A DNA stretch of 39,745 nucleotides from assembly GCA_028687375.1 (NCBI GenBank), contig JAQUAG010000021.1, positions 1 through 39,745 on the forward strand, read 5' to 3'. This DNA is from Arcobacteraceae bacterium (GTDB taxonomy: Bacteria > Campylobacterota > Campylobacteria > Campylobacterales > Arcobacteraceae). Shown in pieces: positions 1-9,540 of the stretch. Every line of letters begins with the position of its first letter. The first letter of the stretch is position 1. The notes beneath the pieces are model-generated. The model had not been told where the DNA came from. It was given only the letters and a program-made list of their open reading frames with translations, and made no database searches. The position numbers and the translations under genes were made by a program.

Positions 1-3000
1 CCAAGTATAATTTGTAGAACCTGTTGTTACATTTGATGCTGTACCTGTACTACAAAGATTTGCTGATGGAGCTATTAAACTTGCGATACCATTTGAAGTT
101 CCACAAGTTCCATTAATTGGGGTTGGTGTTGAACCACCTCCACTATTTCCACCTATTGATGTATTTGTATCTGTTCCACTACTACTTTCATTTACATCAG
201 TAACTGTAATAGTGATATTTTTATCAAATGTTGCATTTCCACTATCTGTTGTTTTTACACAAACACTATAACTTGATTTAGTTTCATAATCAAACACGCC
301 AGAAGATTTTAATGTTGTTCCATTGATAGTAAAGTTATTATCATTTACTCCTCCACAGAAACTATAAGTATGAGTATCCTCTACATCAACATCTACTGTA
401 CTTAACGTTCCTATAGTTGTGCCAATTACACTGTTTTCAGCTATTGTACTTTTACTTAAAGTGATATTTGTTGGTGCATGATTCACGCTATTTACTGTTA
501 TTTGAAAGTTATGCTCAACTTCATTTGTCCCATCGCTTAGGGTTAGATTTACATCGTAGACTCCTGGGCTTGGTGGGGTTCCTGTGAGTTTAGCTGGTAT
601 AGCTTGTGTTATTCTTCTGATTCTTTGATTACCAAAATCGGCTACAAAAACATTGCCGGTACTATCTACTGCTACTCCAGCTGGATTAGTAAACTTGGCG
701 ATTGTACTACTTCCATCTGCAAAACCAAGAGTAGTTCCTGCTACTGTTGTAACATCACCATTAGTACCTATTTTTCTTATTTTTTGATTGGTAATATCAG
801 CTACAAAAACATTGCCGGTACTATCTACTGCTACTCCAGCTGGATTAGTAAACTTAGCGATTGTACTACTTCCATCTGCAAAACCAGAAATTCCATTTCC
901 TGCAAGTGTTGTTACATTGCCATTTTGATCTATTTTTCTTATTTTTTGATTATTCATATCAGCTACAAAAACATTTCCACTACTATCAACTGCCACTCCT
1001 CTTGGATGATTAAACTGTGCAGTTGTACTACTTCCATCTGCAAAACCAGAAATTCCACTTCCTGCAAGTGTTGTTACATCTCCATTAGGGGTAATTTTTC
1101 TTATTTTATGATCTAATTCATCAGCTACAAAAACATTTCCACTATTATCAACTGCTATCCCATTTGGATGTTTAAACTGTGCAGTTGTACTACTTCCATC
1201 TGCAAAACCAGAAATTCCATTTCCTGCAAGTGTTGTTACATTTCCATTAGTATCTATTTTTCTTATTCTATGATTATTGCTATCAATTGCAAAAACATTT
1301 CCACTACTATCTACTGCTACTCCAAGTGGATTTTGAAATTGTGCAGTTATACTACTTCCATCTGCAAAACCAGAAATTCCACTTCCTGCAAGTGTTGTTA
1401 CATTTCCATTAGTATCTATTTTTCTTATTCTATGATTAGCTTGATCAGCTACATACATATTTCCACTACTATCTACTGCAACTCCTGTTAAATTTTGAAA
1501 TTGTGCAGTTGTACTACTTCCATCTGCAAAACCAGAAATTCCACTTCCTGCAAGTGTTGTAACATTTACATCAATTTTTGAGTTTAATTTAAGCCAACTA
1601 GGGAATGTCGTTCCTGCTTTTCCACTCCAAATAAGAGTATCTCCATCAATATCACTTGCTCCTAAAGTATAACTATAACCACTCTTTTCATTTATACTTG
1701 TAATCGCATTACTTATGATAATTGGTGTTTCATTTACATTTGTTACATTTAGAGTGATATTTTTATCAAAAGTTGCATTTCCACTATCTGTGGTTCTTAC
1801 ACATATACTATATGAAGATTTCATTTCATAGTCAAACACTGCATTTGCTTTAAGTTCACTTCCACTTATACTAAAGTTTGCATCATCAGTTCCACCACAA
1901 AAACTGTACGTATGAGTATCCCCTACATCTATATCTGTAGAACTTAGTGTTCCTATTGTTATATCACCTGCACTGTTTTCAGCTATTGTATTTGAAGATA
2001 AATTTATATCTGTTACAGCATCGTTTACATTATTTACTGTAATTTTAAAGTTATGTGCAACTGTAGTTGTCCCATCACTTACAGTTAGGTTTATATCATA
2101 AACTCCTACATCTGAGTTTGTTGGTGTTCCTGTGAGTTTTGTACTATTGTCTATCTTTCGTATTCTATTATTAGTATCCGCTATAAAAACATTACCATTG
2201 CTATCAACTGCAACTCCAGAAGGATAGTTAAACTTGGCAGCTGTTCCAGTTCCATCTGCAAAACCAGAGGTGCTTCCTGCAAGAGTTGATACATTTCCAT
2301 CAGGTGTGATTTTTCGTATTTTATTATTATCAACATCAGCTACATAAACATTGCCATTGCTATCAACTGCAACTCCAGAAGGAAAATTAAACTTGGCAGC
2401 TGTTCCAGTTCCATCTGCAAAACCAGAGGTGCTTCCTGCAAGAGTTGATACATTTCCATCAGGTGTGATTTTTCGTATTTTATTATTATAAACATCAGCT
2501 ACATAAACATTGCCATTGCTATCAACTGCAACTCCTCTTGGATGATTAAACTGTGCAGTTGTACTACTTCCATCTGCAAAACCATCTGTTCCACTTCCCG
2601 CAAAAGTTGATACATTTCCATCAGGTGTGATTTTTCGTATTTTATTATTATAAACATCAGCTACATAAACATTGCCATTGCTATCAACTGCAACTCCATA
2701 AGGATAGTTAAACTGTGCAGCTGTTCCAGTTCCATCTGCAAAACCATCTGTTCCACTTCCCGCAAAAGTTGATACATTTCCATCAGGTGTGATTTTTCGT
2801 ATTTTATGATTGATATAATCAGCTACAAAAACATTGCCACTGCTATCAACTGCCACTCCAGAAGGAGAATTAAACTGTGCAGTTGCTCCTATACCATCTG
2901 TAGAGCCAGCCGTTCCATCCCCTGCAAAAGTTGTAACACTTATATCGCTACTTAAACTAAGCCAACTAGGTAAGGTCGTTCCAGCTTTTACACTCCAAGT

Positions 3001-5091
3001 TAGAGTATCTCCATCAATATCACTTGCACCTAAAGTATAACTATATCCACTCTTTTCATTTATACTTGTAACTGAATTACTTGTGATAGTTGGTGTTTCA
3101 TTTAGATTTATAATTGAGATTGTTACATTTTTATCATAAATTGCATTTGCACTATCTGTTGTTCTTATACAAACAGAATAAGAAGATTTAGTTTCATAAT
3201 CAAATACACTATTTGATTTAAGTGTTGTTCCAGTGATTATAAAGCTATTATCATTTACACCTCCACAAAAGCTATAAGTATGTGTATCACTACTATCTGC
3301 ATCTGTGCTACTTAAAGTTCCTATGGTTGTTCCTGCTGTACTATTTTCAGAGATTATTGAAGGGCTTAGAATAATGTTTGTTGGAATAGAGTTTGGAATC
3401 TGCCCACCATCGCTTATTGTCCAATTATTTGGTTCTCCTGTCAAAATCGCTCTTGATGTTACTGCACTTGCAGAATACTTACTATTACCAGCATTAAATA
3501 ATACAGATGGTTTGACAGTTTGTGTAGACCATTTTTGAAGCATAGCATCATAATAAGAAGGTGATAATGTAACCCCAGTAAACATCATATCCATTGTTGT
3601 AATAGATGAGATATTCCAATCTGATATATCTTGATTAAATGTTGAAGTACCTGTAAACATATTCATCATAGTAGTTACTTTACTTGTATCCCAATCACCT
3701 ATATCTTGATTAAACTTTGAAGCATTTGCAAACATAGATCTAGTTGTAGTTACTTTATTTGTATTCCATCTTCCTATATCTTGATTAAATAGTGAAGCAG
3801 CATTGAACATAAAACTCATATCTGTTACTTTATTTGTATTCCAATCGCCTATATCTTGATTAAATTTTGAAGCCATATTAAACATTTGTGACATAGTTGT
3901 TGCTTTAGAAGTATCCCAACGACTGATATTTTGATCAAATTTGGTTGCTGAATAAAACATAGCTCCAAAATTTGTAACAGAACTAGTATTCCAATCGCCT
4001 ATATCTTGATTAAATGGTGTAGAGTTAAACATTCCATTTAGAGTAGTGACTTTACTTGTATTCCATCTGCTAATGTTTTGATCAAACTTTGTATTAGAAG
4101 CAAACATGGAACTCATATCAGTTACATTTGCTGTATTCCAATGTGCTATGCTACTATTAAAATCAGAGAGATAAAACATCTTGGACATATTCCAAACTTT
4201 ACCTACATCCCATTTATCAAGACTATAATTAAATTTTGTTTTAGAATTTAAAAAACCGCCAAACATACTTGACATATTCACAACATTACTAACATTCCAA
4301 TCACCTATATCTTGATTAAACTCATACGCCCAATTAAACATCTCTTGCATATTTGTTACTTTAGAGGTATCCCAACGACCAATATTTTGGTTAAAAACAC
4401 TTGCACCACTAAACATAGAACTCATATTAGTGACATTACTAACATTCCAATCACCTATATCTTGATTAAATACCTGATTATTTCTAAACATTTGATACAT
4501 ATTGGTAACATTGCTAACATTCCAATCACCTATATCTTGATTAAATATCAATGTGGCATTGAACATATTAGCCATTGTAGTTACATGACTCACATCCCAT
4601 GAAGTGATATTTGCATCATTGAAACTACTGTTTGCCACAAAACAAGAAGATAAATCTGTAACCGTACTAGGTAAAATTGCCGGTACTTGTGTAAGATTTG
4701 ATGCATTATAAAATGCTCCTTGCAGTGATCTAAGACCTATGTCTCCAAAACTTTCTACTTTTATTAACTTTTTTATATCTGAAGGTGTAACAGGTGTGTA
4801 AGTTCCAAATTGTGTTAAAGTACCAGTAAGTTGTACGGTATAAATACCATGACTTGAATAACCGTGGGATTTCATTCCCTGAGATGTGTAACTACTGCTA
4901 CTTCCATCACCCCAATCAACTGTAACATCCATCTCGTTTACAGAACCTATATATAGTGGTAATGTTACAGTAAGTCCCGAAGCTCCAGTAGCTTGTGTGT
5001 TATACACTAGCACCATGGGTTCTCCTGCTGCCATTAAACTCGTAGTTAACAGTATCCAAAAAGATACAATTAAACTTTTAAATCTTTTCAT
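1..5091 (-). CDS. Giant modular secreted/surface protein (PKD, BspA/DUF285, cadherin-like, NHL), C-terminus outside window
   Basis: The minus frame from ATG at 5091 is open without a stop through position 1 (1697 codons), so the gene is 3'-truncated by the window edge. A strong GGAGG lies 5' of the ATG. Residues 1-22 are a Sec signal peptide (MKRFKSLIVSFWILLTTSLM). Next come a PKD-like segment (VDWGDGS...GIYTVQLTG), about 14 repeats of the BspA/DUF285 type (pattern FNQDIGDWNVSNVTNMxxMF), a cadherin-like module with a Cys pair (YSFCGG...YSVCIRT), and then two copies of a larger module: a CADG/He_PIG-like domain with an NHL block inside it, followed by another cadherin-like module. A Gly/Ser/Thr-rich linker (near 150) precedes a Cys-containing C-terminal stretch that runs off the window. 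No anchor or secretion signal is visible in the part present. The family suggests adhesion or matrix binding; the ligand is unknown. The plus-strand open frames here are shadows. Confidence 0.9.
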   Translation of the reverse strand, partial: MKRFKSLIVSFWILLTTSLMAAGEPMVLVYNTQATGASGLTVTLPLYIGSVNEMDVTVDWGDGSSSSYTSQGMKSHGYSSHGIYTVQLTGTLTQFGTYTPVTPSDIKKLIKVESFGDIGLRSLQGAFYNASNLTQVPAILPSTVTDLSSCFVANSSFNDANITSWDVSHVTTMANMFNATLIFNQDIGDWNVSNVTNMYQMFRNNQVFNQDIGDWNVSNVTNMSSMFSGASVFNQNIGRWDTSKVTNMQEMFNWAYEFNQDIGDWNVSNVVNMSSMFGGFLNSKTKFNYSLDKWDVGKVWNMSKMFYLSDFNSSIAHWNTANVTDMSSMFASNTKFDQNISRWNTSKVTTLNGMFNSTPFNQDIGDWNTSSVTNFGAMFYSATKFDQNISRWDTSKATTMSQMFNMASKFNQDIGDWNTNKVTDMSFMFNAASLFNQDIGRWNTNKVTTTRSMFANASKFNQDIGDWDTSKVTTMMNMFTGTSTFNQDISDWNISSITTMDMMFTGVTLSPSYYDAMLQKWSTQTVKPSVLFNAGNSKYSASAVTSRAILTGEPNNWTISDGGQIPNSIPTNIILSPSIISENSTAGTTIGTLSSTDADSSDTHTYSFCGGVNDNSFIITGTTLKSNSVFDYETKSSYSVCIRTTDSANAIYDKNVTISIINLNETPTITSNSVTSINEKSGYSYTLGASDIDGDTLTWSVKAGTTLPSWLSLSSDISVTTFAGDGTAGSTDGIGATAQFNSPSGVAVDSSGNVFVADYINHKIRKITPDGNVSTFAGSGTDGFADGTGTAAQFNYPYGVAVDSNGNVYVADVYNNKIRKITPDGNVSTFAGSGTDGFADGSSTTAQFNHPRGVAVDSNGNVYVADVYNNKIRKITPDGNVSTLAGSTSGFADGTGTAAKFNFPSGVAVDSNGNVYVADVDNNKIRKITPDGNVSTLAGSTSGFADGTGTAAKFNYPSGVAVDSNGNVFIADTNNRIRKIDNSTKLTGTPTNSDVGVYDINLTVSDGTTTVAHNFKITVNNVNDAVTDINLSSNTIAENSAGDITIGTLSSTDIDVGDTHTYSFCGGTDDANFSISGSELKANAVFDYEMKSSYSICVRTTDSGNATFDKNITLNVTNVNETPIIISNAITSINEKSGYSYTLGASDIDGDTLIWSGKAGTTFPSWLKLNSKIDVNVTTLAGSGISGFADGSSTTAQFQNLTGVAVDSSGNMYVADQANHRIRKIDTNGNVTTLAGSGISGFADGSSITAQFQNPLGVAVDSSGNVFAIDSNNHRIRKIDTNGNVTTLAGNGISGFADGSSTTAQFKHPNGIAVDNSGNVFVADELDHKIRKITPNGDVTTLAGSGISGFADGSSTTAQFNHPRGVAVDSSGNVFVADMNNQKIRKIDQNGNVTTLAGNGISGFADGSSTIAKFTNPAGVAVDSTGNVFVADITNQKIRKIGTNGDVTTVAGTTLGFADGSSTIAKFTNPAGVAVDSTGNVFVADFGNQRIRRITQAIPAKLTGTPPSPGVYDVNLTLSDGTNEVEHNFQITVNSVNHAPTNITLSKSTIAENSVIGTTIGTLSTVDVDVEDTHTYSFCGGVNDNNFTINGTTLKSSGVFDYETKSSYSVCVKTTDSGNATFDKNITITVTDVNESSSGTDTNTSIGGNSGGGSTPTPINGTCGTSNGIASLIAPSANLCSTGTASNVTTGSTNYTW
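600..1575 (-). repeat. NHL repeat block 2 (6 blades) inside a second CADG domain
   Basis: Six units with the core GVAVDSSGNVFVAD and (H/Q)(K/R)IRKI. The block begins directly after FPSWLKLNSKID and ends directly before KLTGTPPSPGVYDVNLT, the same insertion point as block 1. Adjacent units are very similar in DNA, for example the stretches around 880-910 and 1050-1080, so the blades probably multiplied by recent in-frame duplication. Confidence 0.85.
2140..2940 (-). repeat. NHL repeat block 1 (5 blades) inside a CADG domain
   Basis: Five units of about 53 residues, each with AGSGTxGFADG, AQFNxPxGVAVDS, GNVYVADxxNNKIRKI. They lie between the half-domain ending LPSWLSLSSD and the half-domain starting LTGTPTNSDVGVYDINLTV, which together look like one dystroglycan-type cadherin (CADG/He_PIG) domain. 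Confidence 0.85.
3570..4640 (-). repeat. 14 tandem BspA/DUF285-type protein repeats
   Basis: About 14 units of roughly 25 residues with the pattern (F)(N/D)QDI(G/S)xW(N/D)(V/T)SxVTxMxxMF, coding for residues about 150-507 of the giant protein. The unit FNQDIGDW recurs many times with near-identical codons. Such repeats (PF03382-like) are found in bacterial surface proteins and fold as leucine-rich-like solenoids; this is family knowledge, not seen directly. Confidence 0.85.
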
Positions 5092-5382: not shown

Positions 5383-7011
5383 ATGAGATACTGGTCGTTG
5401 TTTATCCCATTTTTATTATTTTCACAAGATTTAGAAAAAGTTTCATTGCAACTAAACTGGAAATATCAATTTGAATTTGCTGGATTTATTATGGCAAAAG
5501 AGATGGGATACTATAAAGAAGCTAATCTTGACGTGGAGATTAAAGAATATCAAAATGGAGTCAATATCACAAAAGATGTTCTTGATAACAAAGTAAATTT
5601 TGGTCTTAAAAATAATGCGTTAACTATTGAAAACAAAAAAATCATCCCAAATATTTTACTTGCAACTTATTTTCAAACTTCACCTTTTATAATCGTTGCT
5701 CAAAAAGAAATAAAGAATCCAGCACAACTTAGAGGTAAAAAAGTTATGATAGAGCAAGAGGAGATTGTAAGTGGTCCTATTGACTTGCTTTTAGAAAATT
5801 ATAATATCAATACTAACAATACAATATTTTTACCCCATAGTTTTGATGTCGAAGCTTTTATCAATAAAGATATAGATGCGATGAGTGCCTTCACATCAAA
5901 TGAGCTTTATTTTTTGGATAAACTTGGTATCACATATACTGTTTTAAATCCAGCTAATTATGGATTTTATACCAATGCAGTGAATCTTTTTACCTCCCCA
6001 AAAGAATACAATAATCATAAAGTAAGATGTGATAATTTTGTGAAAGCTACCAATCGTGGTTGGGAATATGCACTTTCTCATACTAAAGAAACTATTCAAA
6101 TTTTACAAACAAAATATAGTGTTTCTAAATCAAAAGAAGCTCTTTTTTATGAAGCAAATGTAACAAAAAAACTTATGATGACAAATATTTACAAGATAGG
6201 AGAGCTTACTCCTGAACTTACAATTAGACTTTATAAACAACTAAAAGCTTCAAACTCTATACAAACAGATGAGAATATGGAAGATATGACCAAAAAAATC
6301 TATGCAATGTTTACAAAAAGTGAAAAAGTTATAGATTACCTATTTTTAGCACAACTTTTTATATTTTTTACCTTTATATCTTTAGGATTATTTTACAAAC
6401 AGAGTATCTTGAAAAAACTCAATCAAGAACTAACTTTTCTTAAAGAAAATCTACAAAAAGAAGTTGATTACAAAAATATTCTCCTAAAAGAATTACACCA
6501 TAGAGTCAAAAATAATCTTCAAATAATACTAAGTATACTTTCAATAAATTCCAATAAAGAGGTGATAAAAAATCAAATCAATGCTATCAAACTAGCTCAT
6601 GAAAAACTCACTTATAATGGTGTAGATAATTCTGTGGATTTGCCAAATTATTTAGCTGATTTGGGTTATGAAGTGACATTAGCTCTTAAAATTGAGATTG
6701 AGATTTTAGGTAATGCCAAAAAAGTTGATATTGATACAGCAATTAACATTGGAATCATCATAAATGAACTTATTAGTAATAGTATCAAATATGCTTTAGA
6801 CCATAATCCAACTCCATCTATAACTATTACTATTGAAACTATTAATGAAAAAACTCAAATTATCTATTGTGATAACGGGAAAAACTATTTGAATAAAAAT
6901 TTAAAAAAAGGTCTTGGACTAAATATCATTGAGTCTATTGTAAAAAATAAACTAAAAGGTAACATATTATTTAAATTAAAAAATGGGTTTTATTGTCATA
7001 TCATATTTTAA
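5383..7011 (+). CDS. Sensor histidine kinase: NMT1/THI5-like periplasmic domain + HisKA_2 kinase
   Basis: 542 residues. A signal peptide or N-terminal anchor (MRYWSLFIPFLLFSQ) is followed by a periplasmic binding domain of the NMT1/THI5 type, residues about 18-310 (LQLNWKYQFEFAGF, then AKEMGYYKEANLDVEI), usual for ABC transporters of pyrimidine-like or sulfonate-like ligands. One membrane helix lies at about 322-340 (YLFLAQLFIFFTFISLGLFY). A HisKA_2 dimerisation/phosphoacceptor motif (LKELHHRVKNNLQ, His about 372) and an HATPase follow (NELISNSIKYAL as N-box, YCDNGK, GLGLNIIESIV). The protein senses a small ligand outside the cell and phosphorylates a response regulator. No transporter genes are adjacent. 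The best partner is the receiver-wHTH regulator at 9617, since HisKA_2 kinases commonly pair with such receivers and the two genes share an upstream motif. Its last 11 bases overlap the convergent kinase gene. Confidence 0.85.
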   Translation: MRYWSLFIPFLLFSQDLEKVSLQLNWKYQFEFAGFIMAKEMGYYKEANLDVEIKEYQNGVNITKDVLDNKVNFGLKNNALTIENKKIIPNILLATYFQTSPFIIVAQKEIKNPAQLRGKKVMIEQEEIVSGPIDLLLENYNINTNNTIFLPHSFDVEAFINKDIDAMSAFTSNELYFLDKLGITYTVLNPANYGFYTNAVNLFTSPKEYNNHKVRCDNFVKATNRGWEYALSHTKETIQILQTKYSVSKSKEALFYEANVTKKLMMTNIYKIGELTPELTIRLYKQLKASNSIQTDENMEDMTKKIYAMFTKSEKVIDYLFLAQLFIFFTFISLGLFYKQSILKKLNQELTFLKENLQKEVDYKNILLKELHHRVKNNLQIILSILSINSNKEVIKNQINAIKLAHEKLTYNGVDNSVDLPNYLADLGYEVTLALKIEIEILGNAKKVDIDTAINIGIIINELISNSIKYALDHNPTPSITITIETINEKTQIIYCDNGKNYLNKNLKKGLGLNIIESIVKNKLKGNILFKLKNGFYCHIIF

Positions 7012-8869
7012 ATACAATATCAAAAGCTGCGCCCTCTTTATCGTTTTTAATATTTATTGTTCCCTCAAATTTCTTCTGAATAATTTGTATAGCAATATAC
7101 AATCCTATTCCAAATCCCTCTTTGGTTGTACTAACAAGTGGTGTAAAAATATCTTTAAATACTTTTTTTTCAACCCCTCCTCCATTATCTTTTATAGTTA
7201 AAATAAATCCTAACTGATGTGGTTTATAAATAAATGTGATGATTGGGGTTTTTATATCTCTTAATTTAAAAATATTTATAGCATTACTTATAAAGATAAT
7301 CAAAAGCTGATTCAATGATGCTGGATAGGTATTTACAATCAAATCTAAATTTGGGAATATATACTTTACTTCTAAATTTTCATTTCTAAAATAATTCAAA
7401 GCCTTTTGTATAGCATCATAAAGATTGACTATCTCTTTATCTTCATTGCTTGAAAGTTGCTCATGTATCTCCTTAGTAATAATATTAAAATCATTTGTTA
7501 TCTTTTGTAAATCCTCTAAATTTTCAAGAAGCTCATTTTTATTGATAGTGTCATGTTGAAGTGTAAACTTCATATTTGAAACAACTGCACCTAACGATGA
7601 AACTGGCCTTCTCCACTGATGGACAATAAATGTGATATATTCACCAAGATGGGTATATCTATTTTGAAGTGTTGCTATTTTTTCAAGATTTTCTTTTTGA
7701 TTTTTTATTGTTTTTACTTTGGTGCTTAATGCTAAAGTGATAAAAAATATCTCCCCTAAAATGAAAAAAGAAGTGATACTAGAAGCTATAAATATACTTT
7801 CTTTAAAACCACCATACACTACATAACTTGTAAAAAAGACACTCCCTATTAAAAAGATTTTTGCAAACATATAATAAAAAGAACCAACCTCTTTTTGTAA
7901 TACAAGATACAAAACAATAATAAAATTACCAACAAGTCCAATAGCAAAAAAGACACTCCCTATATCAAAACCTATAGGAAATAAATGAAAAATTCTCCCT
8001 ATATAAGCAATTAACAAAAGTGAAAAAATAGCTATCATAAATTTTAAAAAATAGTATATTTTTTTATAATTTGTTTTTGAAATATTGAAAAAATATAGAG
8101 GAAGCACCATTTGTAAAATCATAGAAAAATAAACTCCAAGGTAACTCAATTCATTTAAGAATAAAAAGTTATCTGTAAAATCAAGATAATAAAAAATCTC
8201 ATACAATGCAAGATATGTAATAAAAGATGTTACAGCGTAGATAGTATGAATCAAAAATGCCTTATCTTTAATAATTGTAAAATAGATAAAGTTATAAAAA
8301 ATTAAAGCTATTAAAATTCCACTGTATAACCCCCACCAAAGAAGGTCATTTTGTGTATTTTTATCAAATTCATTTTTTTCTAACATGAGCCAATTTGATT
8401 CTAATACACCATTAGTTGTAGAATATATTTTTGAAAATACTTTAACTGATTCGTTTGGTAAAAGTGAAATTTCACAAACACTATATCTAGATATTCTTTC
8501 TCTATTTTTTAATGGTCGCATATCCCCTATAAGAAATTGTTTATCTAGAATATTATTTTTAAAAACCCATATATCTAAAAAATCAATACCAACTCTTGGA
8601 TTGACAAGCACAAAAGTATGGCTTATATTTGTATCATTCAATATTATTAATTTTGAATAAACAGTCTTTTTTGTTCTCCCAAATACATTTTTTTCTCTTT
8701 TTTGAAATAAATCTTCATTCATCTCATATGGTTTAAGAGAATTGTCATCAGAAAGAAAAGTTTTTTGATATTTATCTAAAATTTGATTGCTTTGTGAAAA
8801 TACAAATACATCTTCAGATGCAAATACAAATAAACTAAAAGTTAAAAAAAAGAAAATTACTTTATACAT
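7001..8869 (-). CDS. 7TMR-DISM sensor histidine kinase
   Basis: 622 residues. Signal peptide (MYKVIFFFLTFSLFVFA), then an extracellular 7TMR-DISMED2-type domain (about 20-175, including VYSKLIILNDTNISHTFVLV), seven membrane helices (about 180-385), a short coiled coil, a HisKA-like box with HQWRRPV (His about 417), and an HATPase (SNAINIF, DNGGGV, GFGIGLYIAI). The extracellular domain is thought to bind carbohydrates or similar ligands in other bacteria; the ligand here is unknown. The start codon overlaps the end of the regulator gene at 8857 by 13 bases, so the two are translationally coupled and form a two-component pair. Confidence 0.85.
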   Translation of the reverse strand: MYKVIFFFLTFSLFVFASEDVFVFSQSNQILDKYQKTFLSDDNSLKPYEMNEDLFQKREKNVFGRTKKTVYSKLIILNDTNISHTFVLVNPRVGIDFLDIWVFKNNILDKQFLIGDMRPLKNRERISRYSVCEISLLPNESVKVFSKIYSTTNGVLESNWLMLEKNEFDKNTQNDLLWWGLYSGILIALIFYNFIYFTIIKDKAFLIHTIYAVTSFITYLALYEIFYYLDFTDNFLFLNELSYLGVYFSMILQMVLPLYFFNISKTNYKKIYYFLKFMIAIFSLLLIAYIGRIFHLFPIGFDIGSVFFAIGLVGNFIIVLYLVLQKEVGSFYYMFAKIFLIGSVFFTSYVVYGGFKESIFIASSITSFFILGEIFFITLALSTKVKTIKNQKENLEKIATLQNRYTHLGEYITFIVHQWRRPVSSLGAVVSNMKFTLQHDTINKNELLENLEDLQKITNDFNIITKEIHEQLSSNEDKEIVNLYDAIQKALNYFRNENLEVKYIFPNLDLIVNTYPASLNQLLIIFISNAINIFKLRDIKTPIITFIYKPHQLGFILTIKDNGGGVEKKVFKDIFTPLVSTTKEGFGIGLYIAIQIIQKKFEGTINIKNDKEGAAFDIVFKI

Positions 8870-9540
8870 AACAATAACCCAGTAGAAGAAACACTTCTAA
8901 CAATCCCTTTTATAGGAAGTTTTTGTCGTAATCTAAATAATATATTTTTTAAAGCATTTTCATTTACTTCTAAACTTTCTTCCCAAAGATAATCAAAAAC
9001 AATATCTTTTGAAACTAATTGATTTTTGTTTTTATATAAAATTTCTAATAAACGATATTCTTTTTTTGTTAATGATATTACCCTGTCATTAGCAATAATA
9101 TTTTGCATTTTTATATCTAAAAAAAGTTTATCCCCAAGTTTTGGCATAAGAAGATTGTGTTTTTCCAAAATTAACTCACATTTTTGTAAAACTTCTATCA
9201 CCACCTCTAATGAAACTGGTTTTTCAAGATATTCTACTAAACCTATTTTTGTAGCAGCTTTTAAATATGAGATATCAAGATGAGATGTTGTAACGATAAT
9301 TGGAACAAAATGATTCATATCTCTTATCTTTTGAGCAACTTCTAATCCACTTAAAGTCGGCAGTTCAATATCTAAAATTACTACATCTATCTTATCATTT
9401 TTATAGATATCAAGACCCTTTATCCCATCATTACAAACAACAATTGAATTACAAAAATGAGATAAAAGTTTTGACATATTCTTTGCAATGATTTCATCAT
9501 CTTCAACATATAAAAAATTAGATTGTTTTATTAAATTCAT
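8857..9540 (-). CDS. OmpR/PhoB-type response regulator
   Basis: 227 residues. Receiver domain residues 1-120 with acidic pair E13-D14-D15, phosphoacceptor D57 (VVILDIELP), and the Lys of LEKPVS; winged-helix DNA-binding domain residues about 135-227 (LTKKEYRLLEILYKN, then LFRLRQKL). It lies directly upstream of, and overlaps by 13 bases, the 7TMR-DISM kinase, its obvious partner. It is divergent from the regulator at 9617 with 76 bases between the two starts, so the two may share control. Confidence 0.88.
   Translation of the reverse strand: MNLIKQSNFLYVEDDEIIAKNMSKLLSHFCNSIVVCNDGIKGLDIYKNDKIDVVILDIELPTLSGLEVAQKIRDMNHFVPIIVTTSHLDISYLKAATKIGLVEYLEKPVSLEVVIEVLQKCELILEKHNLLMPKLGDKLFLDIKMQNIIANDRVISLTKKEYRLLEILYKNKNQLVSKDIVFDYLWEESLEVNENALKNILFRLRQKLPIKGIVRSVSSTGLLLCIK

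Follow-up and report, generated by a model that had tools for sequence, protein, structure and literature searches.

The window, the whole stretch of 39,745 nucleotides analysed here, begins with a large gene in which NHL beta-propellers, CADG/He_PIG domains and cadherin-like repeats occur together. This raises the question whether each propeller is inserted into a single Ig-like CADG/He_PIG domain or only lies between two separate ones, and which function such a protein could have.

Organization of the window gene

The open frame (window 1-5091, minus strand) encodes 1697+ amino acids; it starts with a Sec-like signal peptide and is cut off where the contig ends. The Pfam search on the protein listed DUF285/PARCEL repeats, three cadherin stretches, 11 NHL repeats (E 2e-82 over the 11 repeats, beyond chance) and He_PIG as partial matches only, in the domain order Cadherin-CADG[NHL]-Cadherin-CADG[NHL]-Cadherin. 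Both CADG/He_PIG domains are interrupted by an NHL propeller of five or six blades: module 1 (aa 661-1027, window 2011-3111) carries an insert of 271 aa with five blades and module 2 (aa 1117-1541, window 469-1743) one of 331 aa with six, the blade spacing being 53-54 aa in both. An earlier note on this DNA had located the arrangement at 490-3105, which is correct and corresponds to aa 661-1541 of the frame on the minus strand; on reading of the sequence, its motifs, blade counts and domain order were also all as described. The following features were assigned:

5029..5091, minus strand: Sec-type signal peptide MKRFKSLIVSFWILLTTSLMA, read from the sequence by eye
3412..4755, minus strand: DUF285/PARCEL (Liste_lipo_26) repeat region, about aa 113-560 (Pfam DUF285 E 4e-126; NCBIfam TIGR02167)
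3127..3378, minus strand: cadherin-like repeat 1, about aa 572-655, approximate boundaries (Pfam Cadherin)
2950..3111, minus strand: CADG/He_PIG domain 1, N-terminal half, aa 661-714, ends PSWLSLS (He_PIG 2-55; A3 match 2950-3096)
2137..2949, minus strand: NHL beta-propeller 1 insert, five blades, aa 715-985 (Pfam, blade reading, AlphaFold2 model)
2011..2136, minus strand: CADG/He_PIG domain 1, C-terminal half, aa 986-1027, starts LTGTPTN (He_PIG 61-96; A3 match 2029-2142)
1762..2004, minus strand: cadherin-like repeat 2, about aa 1030-1110, approximate boundaries (Pfam Cadherin)
1582..1743, minus strand: CADG/He_PIG domain 2, N-terminal half, aa 1117-1170, ends PSWLKLN (He_PIG and A3 profile matches)
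589..1581, minus strand: NHL beta-propeller 2 insert, six blades, aa 1171-1501 (Pfam, blade reading; ring closed in the model)
469..588, minus strand: CADG/He_PIG domain 2, C-terminal half, aa 1502-1541, starts LTGTPPS (He_PIG and A3 profile matches)
202..447, minus strand: cadherin-like repeat 3, aa 1549-1630 (Pfam Cadherin, best stretch)
1..201, minus strand: start of the C-terminal region; gene truncated at the contig end (contig C19 begins at window base 1)
5383-7011: NMT1-type sensor kinase, divergent neighbour of the window gene
7001-9540: 7TMR-DISM kinase and regulator, after the NMT1-type sensor kinase

The PARCEL (Liste_lipo_26) family of repeats has been described as a coding element that spreads horizontally. 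Searches of PHROGs and NCBIfam gave matches at the repeat level only, and those of the TEN_NHL profile were confined to the blades. A teneurin-type FN-plug/NHL/YD-shell assignment could not be made, with no RHS/YD family found among the Pfam matches of the window protein. Two long plus-strand frames (604-1116 and 1168-1491) lie antisense to the NHL blades and look like a by-product of the codon pattern rather than genes.

Each propeller lies within one CADG/He_PIG domain

The N-terminal half of the interrupted domain of module 1 alone matched He_PIG positions 2-55 and the C-terminal half alone positions 61-96, while the joined flanks matched positions 2-96 (E 4.8e-13, 49.8 bits). Joining of the module 2 flanks likewise gave a match over 2-96 (E 6.1e-11, 43.1 bits). 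With membership of He_PIG/CADG (PF05345) defined as a full-length profile match above the curated cut-off of 24 bits, the joined halves of both modules belong to this family, and the uncut protein gives half matches only. The window gene and its first two paralogues together contain six modules, all with the same complementary pattern; their joined halves scored 2e-13 to 6e-11 for NHL and 2e-11 for kelch-like inserts. Since the halves cover positions 2-55 and 61-96, the insert stands in place of about five profile positions (56-60), at a point identical in both window modules, in line with the claim that the propeller occupies the same place both times. In whole CADG homologues the insertion point is a hairpin loop of 5-10 residues, e.g. 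PAWAAFDPATGALTGTP, and the solved fucoidanase 6dlh has an 8-residue insert relative to the He_PIG profile exactly at the socket position.

It is highly improbable that the flanks are two separate truncated CADG-like domains with the NHL block as a mere linker. Such a reading could draw on the partial He_PIG matches listed by Pfam for the uncut protein and on PMC4443539, according to which many partial domains in databases are annotation artefacts. However, the partial matches are exactly complementary and join end to end, and across all modules the halves share one insertion point. Every protein shows strict N-C alternation of the halves, and orphans were seen only at truncated loci or interrupted frames. 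The flanks were on these grounds rejected as independent domains, and a full CADG domain beside an NHL block was not found either. The earlier proposal that the two flanks are halves of a single domain is supported: in the window protein, profile matches show the nesting and the structural models agree.

Propeller models and blade number

The AlphaFold2 model of module 2, run with an 8-row alignment, reached a pLDDT of 88.8 and a pTM of 0.77. In the fold search, residues 57-378 of this model aligned with Pizza6 (6rli), a designed propeller with a closed ring, at Z 36.8 (rmsd 1.2 for 245 of 250 residues) and with SOQ1 NHL at Z 43, so module 2 is predicted to form a closed six-bladed ring. The model of module 1 was weaker (pLDDT 80.7, pTM 0.66; blade 5 at pLDDT 41-64; best fold-search hit Z 29, rmsd 2.7). 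For both modules the PDB matches were NHL propellers throughout, the fold searches covering the propeller part. The two inserts can be assigned to the NHL beta-propellers (PF01436) with 11 repeats, the ring being closed in module 2 and less sure in module 1.

The earlier note had also pointed to the different blade number. Counts of five and six were confirmed in the sequence, but the difference could have arisen by artefact or by recent loss. Within module 1, blades share up to 93% DNA identity, and the source genome is a draft of 51 contigs, one of which ends inside the window gene. Moreover, six blades were counted in each of the three remaining NHL modules of the first two paralogues and in most regular NHL modules of the relatives examined. 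For these reasons a recent deletion or an assembly collapse may account for the count of five.

Distribution of split CADG domains

The genome of the window encodes about 11 split CADGs in 6 genes and few whole ones. Besides the window gene, split domains are located on contigs C14 (two), C30 (two), C2 (one), C31 (two, one of them diverged) and C40 (two). Relatives were found in Sulfuricurvum PC08-66 (L011), Sulfurovum NORP62 (L012), two further MAGs (L013, L014) and genomes G036 and G371, with five split domains in one protein of G036. A Flavobacteriaceae MAG (L015) encodes a nested NHL module as well, its joined halves matching He_PIG at 8e-7 and 2e-8. The search for other CADG-NHL-CADG proteins that the earlier note had suggested thus yielded further examples in the same genome, in Campylobacterota and in one Flavobacteriaceae MAG.

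A distribution limited to Campylobacterota was suggested by searches with the A3 profile, which is biased to its own phylum, and was rejected on the basis of L015. In CADG-rich genomes of other phyla all He_PIG matches listed were whole, half-domain matches occurring in G036 and G371 only; such surveys are prone to miss divergent halves. Of the other NHL proteins, which came from Verrucomicrobia, Planctomycetes, Firmicutes and further groups, most showed no nesting; in the Verrucomicrobia locus L054, in contrast to the nesting, a propeller is followed by a full He_PIG-like domain. At L013 (contig DZAY01000016.1) a frame change interrupts the nested module and splits the protein into frames of 1000 and 601 aa. 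Although filed under Helicobacter cetorum, this record carries the isolate name SulCav_PC08_66, which points to an assembly from a sulfidic cave and casts doubt on the species label.

Different passengers occupy the same socket

The nesting is not peculiar to the window protein, nor is its socket restricted to NHL propellers. Based on Pfam, the passengers could be classified as regular NHL, irregular NHL, kelch-like (a seven-repeat propeller, Rax2 E 1.8e-9) and FG-GAP propellers (FG-GAP_3, E 1.8e-28) and a C-type lectin (Lectin_C, E 1.5e-8, contig C40 of the same genome). For every class the joined flanks made up a complete He_PIG domain (E 6e-11 for the kelch-like passenger of C31, 3e-11 for the C-type lectin, 6e-9 for FG-GAP and 2e-8 for divergent NHL).

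When the DNA of the kelch-like module C14_m1 and of the irregular NHL module C2_m1 was compared without gaps, identity was 27-43% within the passenger and rose to 87-93% across precisely the 120 nt of the C-terminal half. Between the NHL module C14_m2 and C2_m1 identity was 77-93% over the C-terminal half and then 100% up to the contig ends. In a tree of joined halves the frames of these three modules, with three passenger classes, form a supported clade (97/99). On the frame tree the passenger labels require 8 changes against a minimum of 4, a fit barely above that of shuffled labels; the histories of frame and passenger are separate. The jump in DNA identity at the half-domain border indicates that passengers were exchanged between paralogues, and recombination within the half-domains would be the route. 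A broader reading, which counts at least four fold or repeat classes, is tentative, and somewhat more doubtful than probable: the CADG hairpin may be a standardised exchange socket, at which recombination of the conserved half-domains would let cells swap recognition domains between paralogous surface rods, often beside a dedicated 7TMR-DISM two-component system.

Several other features of these loci were observed. The C14 paralogue has a ubiquitin domain right after the signal peptide (L009:1019-1246, phmmer E 5e-19 to ubiquitin), so that a secreted ubiquitin-like domain precedes its CADG[propeller] modules. A conserved, extended signal-peptide motif, SRFRILKGGKISLVVSALL, is common to the N-termini of otherwise different surface proteins at L010 and L120, including the neighbour at L120:1-2256. 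Contigs C2 and C14 (L119 and L009 ends) have the same terminal sequence, at least 115 nt long and located within split-CADG genes; the window contig C19 also breaks inside such a gene, and the paralogues appear to fragment the assembly.

Neighbouring regulators

OmpR-type response regulators and 7TMR-DISM histidine kinases adjoin many split-CADG genes, as seen at window 5383-9540 and at L009, L011, L012, L120, L121 and L155. In the genome of the window, five of the six split-CADG genes are located within 5 kb of an OmpR-type regulator against a genome background of 10.4% (nominal p 7e-5, to be taken as indicative only, since the 5-kb limit was picked after the neighbours had been seen). This can indicate that split-CADG genes are regulated by the neighbouring kinase and regulator.

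Comparison with known systems

Graham et al. in 2024 reportedly described RTX adhesins whose Ig-like domains are split and project ligand-binding domains. In these adhesins, which include AhLap of Aeromonas hydrophila, FrhA of Vibrio cholerae and MpIBP, ligand-binding domains bud from split Ig-like domains (PMC12077191, PMC10865825). As in the window protein, a complete domain with adjacent termini buds inside an Ig-like domain, the chain returns to finish the latter, and the rod consists of Ig-like extenders. A folded domain within an Ig-like domain of a rod protein, the mark of a split domain, is what the window sequence encodes. The split domain here is, however, CADG/He_PIG and recognisable by sequence, the passengers are beta-propellers and a C-type lectin with up to five per protein, the signal is of Sec type (by eye), and the hosts are Campylobacterota and Bacteroidota. 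RTX or T1SS features were not found: no RTX family was among the Pfam matches of five complete-frame relatives, nor among those of the window protein, whose C-terminus is missing. On account of the five complete relatives these proteins are not filed as RTX adhesins, though they would work like split-domain adhesins.

The nesting had been called unusual. No CADG/NHL case was found in the literature searched, although the main split-domain study may show propeller passengers; the split Ig-like principle itself has already been published for RTX adhesins, in two papers that mention neither propellers nor cadherin domains (PMC12077191, PMC10865825). The biofilm adhesin BapP of Pseudoalteromonas tunicata combines a predicted five-bladed propeller with a cadherin-like/Ig-like rod (PMC12153261). 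It resembles the window protein in this combination, but its propeller is N-terminal and sequential, not nested. Ig-like and NHL domains also occur in one secreted protein, but again not nested, in L054 and in the Bacteroides TIG-NHL proteins (PDB 3hrp), where the two domain types lie side by side. In integrin beta the ligand-binding beta-I domain is inserted in a loop of the Ig-like hybrid domain. It thus shares with the window protein a ligand-binding domain in an Ig-like loop, and differs in being a eukaryotic, allosteric receptor with an unrelated passenger.

Proposed function

The window gene probably encodes a secreted or surface recognition protein of adhesin type, in which the two CADG/He_PIG domains act as split domains. 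Most likely, judging from sequence, the split-CADG proteins are Sec-secreted and follow the split-domain principle of RTX adhesins with a new frame family and new passengers. In the proposed mechanism the chain would fold the first half of the Ig-like sandwich and exit via one beta-hairpin into a complete NHL propeller; the first and last strands of the propeller would be side by side in the ring, and the chain would return and complete the sandwich. The two-strand joint would hold the propeller rigidly at the side of the cadherin/Ig rod with its ligand face outward. Such a socket would permit exchange of the recognition domain (NHL, kelch-like and FG-GAP propellers, C-type lectin) by half-domain recombination. 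Surface exposure, outward projection and ligand recognition are accordingly predicted properties of these proteins; display of the blades far from the cell, as envisaged in the earlier note, is plausible, and in relatives the socket apparently holds exchangeable recognition domains out from the cell surface.

The near-identical NHL blades, which lack an obvious specialised binding site, count against a recognition head. Blades are 73-93% identical in DNA within a ring and those of C30_m1 and C30_m2 are 91% alike at their ends, as would fit repeats homogenised by conversion and not tuned to a ligand, and the nested propeller could then serve as a structural spacer or in protein-protein assembly, for example as a matrix scaffold or for S-layer-like partner binding. 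This appears unlikely, however, as the same socket also accommodates a C-type lectin and FG-GAP repeats, whereas a spacer needs no interchangeable recognition folds and the cadherin repeats already provide a rod. The proximity of five of the six genes (<=5 kb) to an OmpR-type regulator, against 10.4% of the genome, and the 7TMR-DISM kinases and regulators adjoining relatives in several genera would also suit a sensory or signalling surface protein, whose propellers bind a substrate in a circuit with the adjacent histidine kinase and OmpR-type regulator. Yet the linkage is better suited to gene regulation than to physical coupling, and several relatives (L014, L015) are without such a neighbour, which makes a signalling role quite unlikely.

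The nesting is real and belongs to a wider socket system; the split-domain principle is known, while the frame family and the passengers appear to be new. For the recognition proteins proposed here, the split-domain rule for finding adhesin binding heads is extended to the common, sequence-recognisable He_PIG/CADG family, and partial He_PIG matches around an insert can guide the search for recognition domains in environmental bacteria with uncharacterised attachment. The abrupt change in DNA identity at the border of the half-domain offers a testable route for passenger exchange, and the CADG socket could be a natural scaffold to display propellers or lectins. If the hairpin is indeed an exchange socket, it would give Campylobacterota and Bacteroidota a modular, possibly variable surface-recognition repertoire.
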